Made by a program: the position numbers and the translations under genes
The notes under the pieces: generated by a model
What the model was told of the DNA's origin: nothing
Databases searched by the model: none
What the model saw: the letters and a program-made list of their open reading frames with translations, nothing else
NCBI GenBank assembly: GCA_030429585.1
Contig: JAUIEU010000001.1
Span: 491,994-555,993 of the forward strand
From: a bacterium
Lineage (GTDB): Bacteria; Cyanobacteriota; Vampirovibrionia; Vampirovibrionales; Vampirovibrionaceae
Length of the DNA: 64,000 bases
Direction: 5' to 3'
In this document: positions 36,743 through 49,379 of the stretch, piece by piece
Numbering within the stretch: the stretch's first letter is position 1
Layout of the letters: each line of letters begins with the position of its first letter

Positions 36743-37078
36743 TTAGGTATTTTGAAGGCCTTTATTATAGGCTTTTAAAAACCGTTCAAGTCGTTCATAC
36801 CATTTTTTTTCTGTTTTAGGATTTTTAGTGGTGTGTCCTGTTCGGTAAGGTCTGACTGACTCATCTGAATTTGTTGAACCCATAATATATGATTTTTTAG
36901 GGCCTTCAATGCATACATCTAGGTGAATTTCATCTTTTTTACCATTTGTTGTTAAATTTCCATCAATATCACCATATTTTTTTTCTAATTTTACTAATGC
37001 ATGCGTCACGTTCCGGTCCTGGCCGTCGTAAGATGTGTTTAAACCAAAATAGGGAGTGCTATTATTGATACTCAGCAT
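36743..37078 (-). CDS. orphan small protein with N-terminal TPYFG leader
   Basis: I do not recognise this 111-residue protein. It starts MLSINNSTPYFGLNTSYDGQ, so it shares TPYFG exactly with the tandem pair at 20-21 kb while the rest is unrelated. It is highly charged and AT-rich, with KLEKKYGDIDGN and a C-terminal helix KKWYERLERFLKAYNKG. No signal peptide or span is present. AGGAA lies 7-8 bases before the ATG. Confidence 0.65.
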   Translation of the reverse strand: MLSINNSTPYFGLNTSYDGQDRNVTHALVKLEKKYGDIDGNLTTNGKKDEIHLDVCIEGPKKSYIMGSTNSDESVRPYRTGHTTKNPKTEKKWYERLERFLKAYNKGLQNT

Positions 37079-41530: not shown

Positions 41531-42775
41531 TTATTGGAAGGGCTTTGGGCAAAATAGATTGTAAGCCGTGGTTAATTCTGGGCTTTTTTTAACCTTGCCT
41601 TTGCTTATATCGCCTTCTTGTAAGGGGTACGCTGTAACGGCAAAGAGGCCTTCCTTAGGTATTAGCGGGCTAAATAGTTGCTTGTAATGGGCCGTTTGTG
41701 TACCGCAATTTAATGAAAATTGGGTTACTATGCTAAGCCCAGTACTTTGGTTTGTTTTTGGGTGGATATAGAAAACAAACCGAAAATCTTGGGTGGGCCC
41801 TGTAGCACTAGAGGAACTAATGAATAAGGAAGCCCACTCTTTTTCTTTAGTATCTGGGTAAAAGTCTGCTTTTTTAGAGGAAAAATACAGTAAGGTAGGG
41901 TGTTGCTTTAATAATGCATTAATAGGCTCAAGGTCTTTAGTAGAAATATCGTTTAGAGTGTCAGAAGCAAGTACTTCCGTAGGTTTTGTGATGATGTAGC
42001 TGAAAATCTTTGCTTTCTTTATAGGGTCATGTAGCCCCCCGAGAAAATAATTATGTGTATCGATATCGATATCGATATTGATACTATGTGCTTGCCTATA
42101 CTGGGCGAGCGATGGGTGGGCCGGTATTTTTAGTAAGGGTGTTTTGGTGTATTGGCTGGCAATACTCGTCACATCATTGGGGCTAAGGTGTATTTTGTTA
42201 GGATGGGTATTATTAAAGGTGTGGTCATAATACATAACATCCTGGGGGTGAGGGCTATGGTTAGCGCCTAATGCATGCCCTACCTGGTGGAGTAAATTAG
42301 CATTGACCGTTTTCCAGTGCGCTTCTTTTCTTAATACAATAGTCGCCATTACATGGCTTAACGTATCGTTCCACGGGTGGGCACTGTGTTGTGCGTTATA
42401 TTTTTTGTCTTTCCAAGGTTTTGTGTAGCTACGTGTAAAATGTATGGTGATATCGGCATTATCGGCGGTGGTGGTGTAATTCAATACAAGCTGGCCCGGT
42501 AGTGCTTTTTGCCACTGGGTAAATGCGTTTTTGGTGGCTTGGGTTAGCCGGGCATGGCTGTTTTGCCTTATGCCACTAAATTTAATGTATATGTTAATGG
42601 GTCTGCCAATTAATGCCCAATGAAATTTTGGCTCTGCTACGCTGTAATCGGCGCCTTTGGGTGTCGCTGTTTTGGCGGCAGAGGGGGGTGCGCTATTGTC
42701 GGCGTAAATAGAGGGGGCCAGCAAACAGCAGCTTGTTAGTAGTGATAATAGTAGCGCTAACAACAATCTAGGCAT
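41531..42775 (-). CDS. metzincin-like protein with Gln in place of the catalytic Glu
   Basis: The 414-residue protein has a signal peptide or lipoprotein-like start (about 1-25, with CC at 16-17). The matrixin-type zinc motif is HQVGHALGANHS at 163-174, where the family has HExGHxxGxxHS. The Met-turn is VMYY at 180-183. Three zinc-binding histidines remain (163, 167, 173), but the general-base Glu is Gln164 (CAG codon). Upstream, DADITIHF-like strand NADITIHFTRSY and a Trp-rich stretch fit the metzincin fold. A C-terminal domain of about 200 residues is unrecognised. Either an inactive zinc protein or a weak protease; probably exported. It lies between a hydrolase gene and tRNA-Gly. Confidence 0.65.
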   Translation of the reverse strand: MPRLLLALLLSLLTSCCLLAPSIYADNSAPPSAAKTATPKGADYSVAEPKFHWALIGRPINIYIKFSGIRQNSHARLTQATKNAFTQWQKALPGQLVLNYTTTADNADITIHFTRSYTKPWKDKKYNAQHSAHPWNDTLSHVMATIVLRKEAHWKTVNANLLHQVGHALGANHSPHPQDVMYYDHTFNNTHPNKIHLSPNDVTSIASQYTKTPLLKIPAHPSLAQYRQAHSINIDIDIDTHNYFLGGLHDPIKKAKIFSYIITKPTEVLASDTLNDISTKDLEPINALLKQHPTLLYFSSKKADFYPDTKEKEWASLFISSSSATGPTQDFRFVFYIHPKTNQSTGLSIVTQFSLNCGTQTAHYKQLFSPLIPKEGLFAVTAYPLQEGDISKGKVKKSPELTTAYNLFCPKPFQ

Positions 42776-44944: not shown

Positions 44945-44977
44945 TATAGGCAAAAAAGCCCTGATTTGTTGCCTATA
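44945..44977. promoter_or_regulatory. inverted repeat upstream of the four-gene cassette
   Basis: TATAGGCAA and TTGCCTATA are perfect 9-bp arms with a 15-nt spacer, in the AT-rich region between ndk and the cassette. It may be an operator, or a terminator-like structure. No ORF lies in 44873-45095. Confidence 0.4.
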
Positions 44978-45095: not shown

Positions 45096-45872
45096 ATGCC
45101 ACCTAGCAATTATGGCCAGTATCAACAACCGATACAACGGTATTACCCCACAACAAATAATTTTACGAGCAATCGCTATACCTCTAACCGGTATACCAGT
45201 AATCGCAACTACAGCTTTACGGATAACCGCCGTTTATATAACCAGCGCCAAGCGTTAAGTCAGCGGTTAAGCAACTACCAAAACTTTAACCCTAGCTTTA
45301 ACAATGGTGGCAGAAGCAGCTTTTTTAGCCCCCATTACTTTGCGGACAAAACGGCACAAACCACCATTAAAGCCCATACGATTGGTGATGTTATTAAAAC
45401 CGGCTTGATGGTGATTTTAGGCCTAAAGCTCTTTAACCGAGTGTTCCCTAAGCCTGCTAAACAAACAAAAAGCAGCGTTGATAACGCGAAATTGACTGAT
45501 GTGAATATCGAAACCGAATCGGATCAGTTAAAAACGCTAAAAAGTGAAATGCGTAAGAACATTAAAAGTTATGACCATCAATATACGAAGCTTAAGAACC
45601 AAGTAAATGGTAGTAGCCTTGATGGTAAGGATAAACGCACACTTAGGAAAGAGCTTAAACAAGATATTAAAAAAGATATGAAAGCTTTGGAAAAAGAATA
45701 TGAGCTTGTAAAAACGGAGCTTGAGAAAGCTAGGAAAAAAGAGGATTATGACAGACTAGCAAAACGTATTGAAGATCTTAATAATAAGGTTGATGCTTCT
45801 TTAGAAAAGATTAAAACGGATAAATCTCGTGTTTTAGACCCTACGGGTATTGATGGAGGCGATGGCGACTAA
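45096..45872 (+). CDS. one-span protein with Asn/Tyr-rich N-terminus and C-terminal coiled coil (cassette gene 1)
   Basis: I do not recognise this 258-residue protein. Residues 1-80 are rich in Asn, Tyr, Gln and Ser, with the tandem repeat TSNRYTSNRYTSNRN. A hydrophobic segment of about 18 residues follows at about 96-113 (DVIKTGLMVILGLKLFNRVF). The C-terminal 130 residues form a Lys/Glu-rich coiled coil (KALEKEYELVKTELEKARKK). A polar N-terminus, one span and a variable C-terminal part is the plan of all four proteins in the cassette. The ATG at 45096 was chosen because GGAGGAG precedes it at about 9 bp. The next gene starts 2 bp after the stop. Confidence 0.7.
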   Translation: MPPSNYGQYQQPIQRYYPTTNNFTSNRYTSNRYTSNRNYSFTDNRRLYNQRQALSQRLSNYQNFNPSFNNGGRSSFFSPHYFADKTAQTTIKAHTIGDVIKTGLMVILGLKLFNRVFPKPAKQTKSSVDNAKLTDVNIETESDQLKTLKSEMRKNIKSYDHQYTKLKNQVNGSSLDGKDKRTLRKELKQDIKKDMKALEKEYELVKTELEKARKKEDYDRLAKRIEDLNNKVDASLEKIKTDKSRVLDPTGIDGGDGD

Positions 45873-45874
45873 TT

Positions 45875-46504
45875 ATGTGCTGCTTCCCCCAACAGTATGG
45901 CCAACAGGTGAATAACTTTTATGGTTCGCCACAAACGCCACAACTAAACGCATTGGTAAACCCCATGCAGGCCAACGGCCTAGGTGCGATGGGGTATCAA
46001 CAAGCGGTTAATCAATTTACTAACCCACTATTTAGTAACCCAGCTAGCGCTAGGCTGCTAAGCAGCCTGCCGGTAACCAGTGCCATTTTAGGTGGCGGCA
46101 ACCAGTTTGGTAGCGGTTTTGGCCAGCCAGGCTTTGGTGCCAACCCCATGATGGGCGGCGGCTTTGGAATGGGTATGCCCGGTATGGGTATGAACAGTTT
46201 TGGTGCTAACCCAATGATGGGTGGCGGATTAAGCCCATTTAGTATGGCTACCATGCCGTTTGGCAACCCCATGCTAACGCCCCAAGCTTTGCAACAACAA
46301 CAAATGATGCAACAAGCGCAACAGCAACAACAGCCTAAAAAAGCAGACCCACTAAAAATATTTGGTATTGCCCTTGGCGGTATATTACTACTAAACATGC
46401 TAACCAAAGGTGGCGAAGAAGGCAGCAATAATGGTGGCGGCCTTGGTAATATCTTAAAATCGATAGCGCCTATGCTTGGCGGCCTATTTGGCGGCGGTAA
46501 ATAA
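45875..46504 (+). CDS. Met/Gly/Gln-rich one-span protein (cassette gene 2)
   Basis: The 209-residue protein starts MCCFPQQYGQQVNNFYG. Residues 85-155 are low complexity with two copies of FGANPMMGGG separated by FGMGMPGMGMNS, then a Gln run. The single span is IFGIALGGILLLNMLTKGG (about 164-182), followed by a Gly/Asn-rich tail ending LGGLFGGGK. The Cys-Cys pair at residues 2-3 might be lipidated or disulfide-bonded; there is no signal peptide. It is tightly coupled to gene 1 (2 bp). Function unknown. Confidence 0.65.
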   Translation: MCCFPQQYGQQVNNFYGSPQTPQLNALVNPMQANGLGAMGYQQAVNQFTNPLFSNPASARLLSSLPVTSAILGGGNQFGSGFGQPGFGANPMMGGGFGMGMPGMGMNSFGANPMMGGGLSPFSMATMPFGNPMLTPQALQQQQMMQQAQQQQQPKKADPLKIFGIALGGILLLNMLTKGGEEGSNNGGGLGNILKSIAPMLGGLFGGGK

Positions 46505-46586
46505 TCCACTACATAAGTTTTTACACTAACCACTCGTCTTACTTACTTTCACCCTAATTAAATTACATTTAAGGAGAACCTTTATT

Positions 46587-46925
46587 ATGGGATTCAATAA
46601 TTGTCGTCCACGCCCAAGAATGCACTGTATGCCCCGCCCATGCCCACCACGGCCACATTGCCCACCGCGCCAACAGTGTGCGCCCCAGGTCATTAATAAT
46701 TACTACCCACCTATGCCACCAATGTTTCCACCACCACCGATGGGCAACTTTTTTGACCCAAATATGTTTAACCCCGGTTTTCCGCCGGTGCCACCACCGG
46801 TAGCACAACCACCTAAAAAGAATAACTGGATGCTTTGGTTACTGGGCGGTTTAGGCCTGTTTCTACTTACCAACGGCGATAAAGATAAGTCTCAAGGCCA
46901 AAACTCTGGCAACAAAGACGGTTAA
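46587..46925 (+). CDS. Cys/Pro-rich one-span small protein (cassette gene 3)
   Basis: The 112-residue protein starts with MGFNNCRPRPRMHCMPRPCP and has five cysteines in its first 35 residues, interleaved with Pro, Arg and His. A polyproline stretch (PPMPPMFPPPPMGNFF) follows. One membrane span lies at about 78-95 (NNWMLWLLGGLGLFLLTNGD), then a short polar tail. The Cys/His pattern could bind metal. AAGGAGAA lies 8-10 bp before the ATG. It has its own 80-bp leader after gene 2. Confidence 0.65.
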   Translation: MGFNNCRPRPRMHCMPRPCPPRPHCPPRQQCAPQVINNYYPPMPPMFPPPPMGNFFDPNMFNPGFPPVPPPVAQPPKKNNWMLWLLGGLGLFLLTNGDKDKSQGQNSGNKDG

Positions 46926-46943
46926 TCGATACTTAGTTTACTA

Positions 46944-46995
46944 TCAGGCGGCGATAACACGCTAACTTAATTATACCGGCGGTTATCGCACCTGA
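46944..46995 (+). terminator. long inverted repeat between cassette genes 3 and 4
   Basis: TCAGG-CG-GCGATAAC and GTTATCGC-A-CCTGA form a 13-bp stem with a small internal loop and a 23-nt terminal loop. No U-tract follows directly. It could act as a terminator, an mRNA stabiliser or an operator for gene 4. The rest of the gap to 47104 is AT-rich and probably holds a promoter. Confidence 0.45.
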
Positions 46996-47104
46996 CTTAG
47001 TAACTACTCAATTTATTATTGAATTATTTATCACAATTATTTTACGTTACTTTTTTTACAGTATCACTAAGGATTTACACACCAAGTTTTCATCAGGGGG
47101 GATC

Positions 47105-48130
47105 ATGATGAACATACCGATGGGATATCTACATAGGCCACAACCGTGGCCCACTATATTCCATCCACAGCGTTGGATGGGCCTGCAGGGGCAACCTCTG
47201 CACCCGTCACACGTTTCCAGGGCTCCCGGCCTTTCGACTGGGGGGAAGATCGCGCTCGGAGCCCTGCTTTTTTTACTTGTAACTAATATGTTTGGTAACA
47301 AAAGCGGACGATTAAACACCCTAACCGCCAAAAGCGTACGAGTAAAAAACCGAAATTGGCAGCCCAACCATGCGGGCAATAATTTTTCACCAAGCTACTA
47401 TGCGCCGCTAAAACAAAGCCAGCGTATGCGCCTCGTTCGGGATAAGCAAGGCAACTTGTTTAGCGAGGGCTTAACAGACCTTGGCAACAAAATGCGACAA
47501 ACACGCAGCCTGCAAGAGGCCTTAACCCTGCAATCCAAAAAAGGATATGCCGATTGGCATGTAAAAAATAATAGCCGCGATGGCAAAGCCGACGATTATA
47601 TTGGCAAAGGCCGAAACCACGGCGTGCAATCTGCCACTGGGTTTGATGGCTTTAGAAAAGATGATAACGGCAATCCAAACAAGCCACGTTTTGTATTAAT
47701 GATTGGGGGCAAAAATAAACATGCCCAATTTAACGAGCTATCTGGCGTGTTTAAGAAGGAATACGGCGTTAAAAAAGATAATGTGTTGTACACCAATGGC
47801 ACTGATAAGGCCAGCGTTCAGGCGGGCCTTGCCAAACTAAAAGAGCTAAGCACCCAATACCCACACGCCGAAATTGTGACCATGATTATGCCAGACCATA
47901 CCGACCGCATTGATGGGGCTTTGTATGGAAAGATTGATGAACGGGTCGCTGAAGGTGGCCATACCGTTAAGTTTTGGGATGGCAAGGCCAGTAATGGCGC
48001 CAATGCCATGACGGAGAAGGATTACAAAGCTATGGAAAACCATTACTTAGGGGGTAAAAACCGTCTTACCGTTTTTGCGTCCTGTCGCGCCGGGGCATTT
48101 GTGGGGGATAGTCTTCCACCGCCTGCGTAA
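47105..48130 (+). CDS. membrane-anchored caspase-fold-like protein (cassette gene 4)
   Basis: The 341-residue protein has a Pro/His/Trp-rich N-terminus (1-42), one span (about 46-64, GGKIALGALLFLLVTNMFG), a linker, and a C-terminal domain at about 190-341. That domain resembles clan CD peptidases (caspase/legumain): RFVLMIGGKNKHAQFNELSG, an alternating strand-helix pattern, a His in IMPDHTDRID (His265) and a Cys in TVFASCRAGAF (Cys327). These correspond to the His-Cys dyad in legumain-type TDHG and EACxSG motifs. The Gly after His is replaced by Thr. The match is by eye and no substrate is known. The start has AGGGGGG just before ATGATG. Confidence 0.5.
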   Translation: MMNIPMGYLHRPQPWPTIFHPQRWMGLQGQPLHPSHVSRAPGLSTGGKIALGALLFLLVTNMFGNKSGRLNTLTAKSVRVKNRNWQPNHAGNNFSPSYYAPLKQSQRMRLVRDKQGNLFSEGLTDLGNKMRQTRSLQEALTLQSKKGYADWHVKNNSRDGKADDYIGKGRNHGVQSATGFDGFRKDDNGNPNKPRFVLMIGGKNKHAQFNELSGVFKKEYGVKKDNVLYTNGTDKASVQAGLAKLKELSTQYPHAEIVTMIMPDHTDRIDGALYGKIDERVAEGGHTVKFWDGKASNGANAMTEKDYKAMENHYLGGKNRLTVFASCRAGAFVGDSLPPPA

Positions 48131-48326
48131 GGGATAAACGTTAATAATAAGTAATTTACACTTAATTTGGGGGATTTACCCGAAGGGGCTGCCCACACAC
48201 GGCCATCCAGTGATACGATACAATCATATCACGTCTATCTAAATCGGTAACAGCGTTCTCTGTGGCATAGGACACCACGAAGACAGGCTGGATAACATGC
48301 TGTACCGAACGATACAAGGATGACCC

Positions 48327-49379
48327 GTGCACAAGGCAGCCCCTTTAACCCCAAGCGCGTTGGCGCTTATTGCGCCGTTATATCAGCAATTTGCTGAGGT
48401 GGCTCAAACTGCGTATGGCTGGCATTTGCCCGCCCCAGAGCTGGAGGAAGTGACCCGTCTGTTAGACGCGGGGTCGTTGATGGGGGTGTATGTATACCAT
48501 GTGGCAGAGCAATCGCCCCAAGGGTTTATGCTGTATGCCGTAGAGCCCCATGGGGCTGTTGAAATTAATGTGCTCCACATCCCGGGTGAAGATGATTGGC
48601 AGACGGTGTTTGATGTGTTGATGCGCGAATTTATTGTGCAGATTAGGGATAGAGAAGACTGGGAAACCGTTAGCTTTGCCATGCTTGGTCGTCACCAGCG
48701 TTTTGCACTAACCGCCCCGTGGTATGGCTTTATGCCAGAAGGCCAGGCGGTACAAACCTTCAACCTAATGACGGAAATCTCTTTGCCTATTTTGCAAAAA
48801 CAACATACCCAATTGGGCCCGTTAGACCCTGATTTTGACCTTCGTACCTGGCAGCCAGAAGATGCGGATAAGCTACCCAAGCTTATTTACGATTGTTTTC
48901 ACCAGCAGGCGGATGCCCAATGGGACCCACGGTTTGCCAGTGTGGCGGGTGCCACACAAGCATTAACCGCCATTACAACAGGTGCCATGGGTATATTTAA
49001 GCCGGAGTGGCAAACGGTGCTGCTAAAAGGGGATACCCCGATTGGTTTTTGCTTTTTATTGCAAACCACCGAAATGGAAGGCAACATTGCCTTGATTGGT
49101 GTGCACCCCACGTATAAACGCCAGGGCCTGGGGGCCCAGGTAATGCGCCATGCGCTGGTAAACTTTGTAAAAGGGGTGGCCAACCAACAATGGATGCTAA
49201 GCCATATTACCGCCACCATGAGTACGGATAGTATCCCTGCGATTCATTTGTATCGGCGGTTTGGCTTCCAAGAGACGGACTGTTACCCCCACTGCTATCT
49301 AACCCGAGAATCCGCTGCCCGATCGTACTACGGCAAAGCTTTATTTAACCCATCTACACCGGCTGGATGTTGCCACTAG
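48327..49379 (+). CDS. tandem GNAT-domain acetyltransferase
   Basis: The 350-residue protein appears to hold two GNAT folds. The C-terminal one is intact: IALIGVHPTYKRQGLGAQVM (acetyl-CoA loop) and SIPAIHLYRRFGFQETD. The N-terminal one (about 1-160) has the fold pattern (MGVYVYHVAEQSPQGFMLYA, then VEINVLHIPGEDDWQTV) but a degenerate acetyl-CoA loop. The start is GTG with AAGGA 7 bp before it. A PRMT-like gene begins 16 bp after the stop, so the two are probably co-transcribed. Confidence 0.75.
   Translation: MHKAAPLTPSALALIAPLYQQFAEVAQTAYGWHLPAPELEEVTRLLDAGSLMGVYVYHVAEQSPQGFMLYAVEPHGAVEINVLHIPGEDDWQTVFDVLMREFIVQIRDREDWETVSFAMLGRHQRFALTAPWYGFMPEGQAVQTFNLMTEISLPILQKQHTQLGPLDPDFDLRTWQPEDADKLPKLIYDCFHQQADAQWDPRFASVAGATQALTAITTGAMGIFKPEWQTVLLKGDTPIGFCFLLQTTEMEGNIALIGVHPTYKRQGLGAQVMRHALVNFVKGVANQQWMLSHITATMSTDSIPAIHLYRRFGFQETDCYPHCYLTRESAARSYYGKALFNPSTPAGCCH

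Follow-up and report, generated by a model that had tools for sequence, protein, structure and literature searches.

The window, a stretch of DNA of 64,000 nucleotides, is part of a 2.21 Mb single-contig genome whose nearest named relatives are Vampirovibrionales MAGs. It contains four consecutive open reading frames on the plus strand (Table 1), at the positions given in the initial annotation. Each of the four products combines a polar low-complexity N-terminus with a single hydrophobic segment, and the 2-bp junction described between genes 1 and 2 is present. The remaining intergenic gaps are 82 bp (genes 2 and 3) and 179 bp (genes 3 and 4), so that close co-transcription is plain for genes 1 and 2 only. 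Searches of Pfam and NCBIfam gave no above-threshold match for any of the four products, and family searches with genes 1 to 4 singly returned nothing useful.

Table 1. Genes of the cassette and predicted features of the gene 4 product (window coordinates; z values from composition-preserving shuffles against the G003 counterpart)
Feature	Position	Strand	Description
Gene 1	45096..45872	+	258 aa; Asn/Arg/Tyr-rich N-terminus, one weak span, charged coiled-coil-like C-terminus; conserved by position only
Gene 2	45875..46504	+	209 aa; Gly/Met/Gln-rich N-terminus, one span, Gly-rich tail; orthologue in G003 (z=8.9)
Gene 3	46587..46925	+	112 aa; Cys-Pro-Pro-rich N-terminus, one span, short Lys/Asp tail; orthologue in G003 (z=5.6)
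Gene 4	47105..48130	+	341 aa; caspase homologue, probably membrane-anchored and circularly permuted; orthologue in G003 (42% identity, z=74)
Membrane span of gene 4	47246..47299	+	approximately residues 48-65; single; predicted by hydropathy; model helix 48-62
p10-like segment of gene 4	47393..47632	+	approximately residues 97-176; ahead of p20
p20-like catalytic segment of gene 4	47678..48127	+	residues 192-341; ends 14 residues past Cys
His265 codon	47897..47899	+	aligned with the catalytic His of caspases; motif DHT for GHG
Cys327 codon	48083..48085	+	aligned with the catalytic Cys; motif ASCRAG for DSCHSG; invariant in 15/15 aligned relatives

Organization and conservation of the cassette

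Similarity between the membrane spans and flanking inverted repeats had both been proposed as features of this locus, and neither was upheld. The span pairs S2-S3, S2-S4, and S3-S4 score 28 each, a value reached by 4.1% of background pairs. Against a background of 119 membrane segments, the three-span score lies at the 96th percentile of random membrane segments, which is hardly above chance. In the counterparts from G003, a genome of a second genus of the same family, these pairs score 14, 21, and 29, and the likeness is thus not kept in orthologues; the orthologous spans of the two genomes score 41, 27, and 37. Spans 1 and 3 stay below a Kyte-Doolittle mean of 1.6 over 17 residues. A shared span module was rejected, the likeness being what hydrophobic Gly/Leu-rich segments yield. 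The supposed inverted repeats are separate hairpins, at 44945/44977 upstream and at 48183/48345 downstream, with unrelated sequences. A mobile element bounded by inverted repeats was also rejected, as the hairpins are unrelated and are not the terminal repeats of a mobile unit.

Two other features were observed near the cassette. A strongly structured leader RNA (window 48182-48346, plus strand; -65.8 kcal/mol, z=-6.6) precedes the GNAT gene, and its 3' arm pairs with both the ribosome-binding site and the GTG start codon (48327) of that gene. It had no Rfam match and no relative in 29 genomes, and it is possibly a cis-regulator confined to this species. On the minus strand, window 41531-42775 encodes a matrixin-type metalloprotease with a signal-like N-terminus (PF00413, E=6e-13).

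The order of the four genes and their flanks are the same in G003, with NDK on one side and GNAT and methyltransferase genes on the other. The NDK gene of G003 is presumed, from position and composition, to be read on the strand opposite to the listed ORF L005:12505-13080. Composition-preserving shuffles support orthology of genes 2, 3, and 4 (Table 1). The similarity of gene 1 to its positional counterpart is not significant (z=2.6), and this match is one of position and architecture only. A reduced version is found in G002, in which one Gly/His-rich one-span protein adjoins a span-less caspase-like protein. Most other genomes of the family that were examined have no cassette and carry a helicase-like gene upstream of GNAT instead.

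Profile searches of 18 genomes of the order detected homologues of genes 2 and 3 only in the genome of the window and in G003, in both cases inside the cassette. The caspase gene stands alone, without the cassette, in most relatives. The expectation that the genes do not occur independently is therefore borne out for genes 2 and 3 and fails for gene 4. Four unrelated low-complexity membrane genes placed side by side by chance, without forming a functional unit, would be in keeping with the two wider gaps, the lack of a common span motif, and the lack of sequence conservation in gene 1. However, the order and flanks are the same in a second genus, and the 18 genomes of the order contain genes 2 and 3 at no other place, which makes a chance arrangement unlikely. 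The cassette is a real conserved unit and ends, as first described, in a protease-like component. A surface or effector apparatus, as first suggested, would be a speculative reading of this unit.

Caspase identity of gene 4

The caspase-fold domain suggested for the end of the cassette was confirmed by a profile of relatives and by Foldseek searches with structure models. The 15-sequence profile of relatives matches the metacaspase structures AtMC4 (6w8s, E=2e-9) and yeast Mca1 (4f6o, E=8e-8). Foldseek ranks caspase chains first for both the window protein and the G003 domain, whose models are weak (probability 0.99-1.00; E 0.018 and 4e-4, respectively). A scan of all genome contigs with the three-sequence alignment matched G003 and G002 only, and a three-sequence profile reaches G005 (9.6e-9) and G010 (5.1e-6). 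The relatives in these last two genomes keep canonical motifs (IASHG ... LDSCHAG). PF00656 exceeds its gathering score (21.4) in two relatives, one from G005 or G010 (24.6) and the other a G002 paralogue (21.5), and has no match in the window protein itself. Gene 4 is a caspase-fold homologue (clan CD, C14-like) with the identity of a p20 domain.

Caspase-like proteases act in several bacterial defence systems, and one conceivable role for the caspase is that of effector in a cassette for anti-phage defence or cell suicide. PADLOC models matched neither the caspase nor genes 2 and 3; gene 1 gave weak coiled-coil matches only, and a relative gave one weak 'caspase' match. The cassette also occupies a fixed site between housekeeping genes in two genera, with no mobile or other defence genes adjoining. 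A known defence system was rejected, because neither the PADLOC models nor defence neighbours match, and a role in defence is considered very improbable.

Order of the p10-like and p20 segments

A terminal p20 preceded by a p10-like segment was found in 23 proteins of the class Vampirovibrionia; the genomes searched with the deep profile all belonged to the cyanobacterial phylum. The PF00656 matches span profile positions ~23-135 of 233, and the protein ends where they stop or shortly after. The p10 half is absent from its usual place behind p20. In the aligned relatives the chain ends 0-25 residues past the Cys, so that there is no space for the strands that come after the Cys in other caspases. 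The chain of gene 4 likewise stops right after the catalytic Cys, and the explanation proposed here is that its caspase domain is circularly permuted.

The segment ahead of p20 in the relatives has the pattern W-P-x-N-x-K-V-x-A-S-S-x-Q ... Y-S-x-x-L ... S-L-x-x-A ... P-V-x-S. It mirrors the canonical p10 of the same bacterial class, V-I-C-S-S-x-x-x-Q-x-S-W-E ... F-T-x-x-L ... L-x-x-A ... Q-x-P-V. When the N-segments were compared with canonical p10 by hhalign, they matched in register with P=1.1e-6 and a score of 39.5, and with P=1.6e-5 when the cassette trio was left out. Control scores were 12.1 for the reversed comparison, 8.6 for the N-segment against canonical p20, and 11.6 for the C-terminal part against canonical p10. 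Column-shuffled controls scored 18.9 or less, except for 3 of 500 that scored ~130 (two of them over 3-8 columns, and all ending at the last template column) and were treated as artefacts; one more occurred in a separate set of 200. Low-stringency realignment extends the match towards the Q-x-P-V motif.

The reverse search gave a similar result. An HMM built from the N-segments alone and run against 895 six-frame ORFs retrieved the family, and the next 17 matches, the best of them at E=0.0049, were all in-register matches to p10 regions of caspases in canonical order; most of these canonical proteins are relatives of each other, so that the matches do not amount to 17 independent confirmations. 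L106, a family member left out of the training of this HMM, scores 2e-5. The HMM of canonical p10 gave weak in-register matches to single permuted proteins, and one shuffled decoy scored higher. Because single-sequence matches are weak, the reverse HMM search and the profile-profile comparison were relied on. The cassette trio alone does not match canonical p10 significantly in hhalign (P=0.07) and is tied in through the permuted family (P=8.6e-8). A tree of 52 p20 domains places all 23 permuted domains on one side of a branch with support of 98/91, a topology that would allow a single origin of the permuted family.

In an orthocaspase without p10, p20 alone would be the enzyme and the N-terminal segment an unrelated prodomain. 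Most prokaryotic caspase homologues have been classed as lacking p10 (PMC6426788). Pfam, searched with the full PF00656, found nothing in the N-segments, and AlphaFold models from three-sequence alignments are poor in the p10-like region, where confidence is <50. This explanation is nevertheless opposed by the in-register match of the N-segments to canonical p10, by the reverse HMM search, and by the position of the chain end in the aligned relatives, and it appears distinctly unlikely. We conclude with considerable confidence that gene 4 is a natural circular permutant in which p10 comes before p20, and it is one member of a diverse permuted family in the class Vampirovibrionia.

Gene 4 is also probably both permuted and membrane-anchored. 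In the window protein, positive charges lie mainly after the span and fewer lie before it, and the G002 relative is span-less, so that the domain may face either side of the membrane. The locations predicted for the permuted family are mixed. The two G005 members have lipobox-like N-termini, one G012 member has a twin-arginine-like signal, and others have an N-terminal span; these predicted features suggest that the family is located at the cell envelope.

Several further caspase genes were recorded. The genome of the window encodes a second permuted caspase at L102:1503-2216 (minus strand; G000:C1 ~2211002-2211715), which is degenerate, has lost the His, and ends GANCHAVRLIPSER. The region L069:4961-7151 of G005 contains a tandem pair of permuted caspases, each with a lipobox-like N-terminus, and these are the best candidates for biochemistry. 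Large-genome members of the class (family f4; L040-L056 and L071) encode several conventional p20-p10 caspases, often as TPR-like fusions and sometimes in tandem.

Catalysis, control, and relation to known caspases

The two complete cassettes, those of the window and of G003, retain both His265 and Cys327. In these two copies, DHT or DHS replaces GHG and ASC or TAC replaces DSC; the G002 relative and the second member from the genome of the window have lost the His. Because the flanking motifs are degenerate, gene 4 may be a regulatory pseudo-protease. Catalysis would then have been lost in the cassette lineage, and the permuted fold would act together with genes 1 to 3 in binding or as a scaffold. 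Prokaryotes commonly have pseudo-orthocaspases (PMC6426788). The retention of both residues in the complete cassettes and the invariant Cys of the 15 aligned relatives argue against a loss of catalysis, which we rate slightly below an even chance. Catalytic activity of the window protein, the least certain element of the proposed reading, is rated at about an even chance.

Activation of ordinary caspases involves a cut in the chain between the Cys strand and the small subunit, and the order of the subunits is tied to how caspases stay inactive until cut. The exchange of subunits would place a free C-terminus at the site where caspases are cut for activation. The gene 4 protein could then fold straight into the 'already cut' conformation with no autoprocessing, and it may be controlled via anchoring, expression, or partners instead of zymogen cleavage. 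A caspase-2 engineered into a permuted form is constitutively active and needs no cleavage to fold (PMC7760212). Since the chain end lies at the activation site and engineered permutants are active uncut, we infer that natural permutants would need no zymogen cleavage; a natural family with the catalytic Cys at the end of the chain would bypass the zymogen step, as the engineered permutants do. Genes 1 to 3 are tentatively given the role of a membrane scaffold that might place the caspase or present its substrate, because they occur solely with gene 4.

Engineered permuted caspases (reverse caspases-3/-6 and cpCasp2; PDB 8vp4, 9c2y) have the same subunit order as the natural family and a new C-terminus at the activation site. 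They are man-made from animal caspases, whereas the natural family is very divergent and often membrane-anchored. The G003 model aligns with the cpCasp2 chain 8vp4_B over 257 columns at an rmsd of 10.6, and with other chains over ~150, which is a weak similarity. Orthocaspases and bacterial type I metacaspases share with the permuted family a p20 with a His-Cys dyad, and conventional members occur in the same class. In those proteins, however, the rest of the chain follows p20, while in the permuted family p20 is C-terminal and the p10-like segment lies ahead of it. On profile evidence only, the gene 4 family departs from the orthocaspase definition of p20 present and p10 absent.

The p10-p20 order defines type III metacaspases, which have been described from algae of secondary endosymbiosis (PMC5756287, PMC6426788). 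A survey from 2019 reported this order in some algae and in no prokaryotes, using a cut-off score of 30 or more with a C14-derived p10 model (PMC6426788), and this cut-off probably misses the bacterial permuted family. No later report of a bacterial p10-p20 caspase was found in the literature searched, which covered few subscription journals or preprints. Type III metacaspases, such as those of Guillardia theta, have p10 N-terminal to p20, as the bacterial family has at profile level. They are eukaryotic and calcium-dependent, however, and the p10 of the bacterial family is probably far too divergent for the published p10 model. The bacterial family, as judged from its sequences, is organized like a type III metacaspase and is not classed as one, the likeness being that of domain order.

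Gene 4 represents a new form of the caspase fold in bacteria, in which the domains come in reverse order, and in this lineage it is part of a conserved membrane cassette. The p10-p20 order, so far reported only from secondary-plastid algae, is thereby placed in a non-photosynthetic class related to cyanobacteria, and the origin of type III metacaspases becomes open to testing. A more far-reaching and rather doubtful scenario is that the permuted caspases of Vampirovibrionia are a diverse family of long standing and are active uncleaved, and that in one lineage a member of this family forms the core of a four-gene membrane complex; the permutation would then be bacterial, and either the source of the algal type III metacaspases or parallel to them. 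Annotation that expects the usual domain order, as with Pfam and NCBIfam, overlooks most of the permuted caspases.

A recurrent N-terminal F-x-G or F-G motif (e.g., MRFQGK, LRFSGS, IYFGQK, PYFGLN) was also observed in L057, L059, L061, and L069, in their neighbours, and at window 36743-37078. The loose F-x-G/F-G pattern occurs within residues 1-60 in 32 of 165 ORFs, compared with 15 within residues 61-120, and the motif could be a sorting signal of the class Vampirovibrionia.
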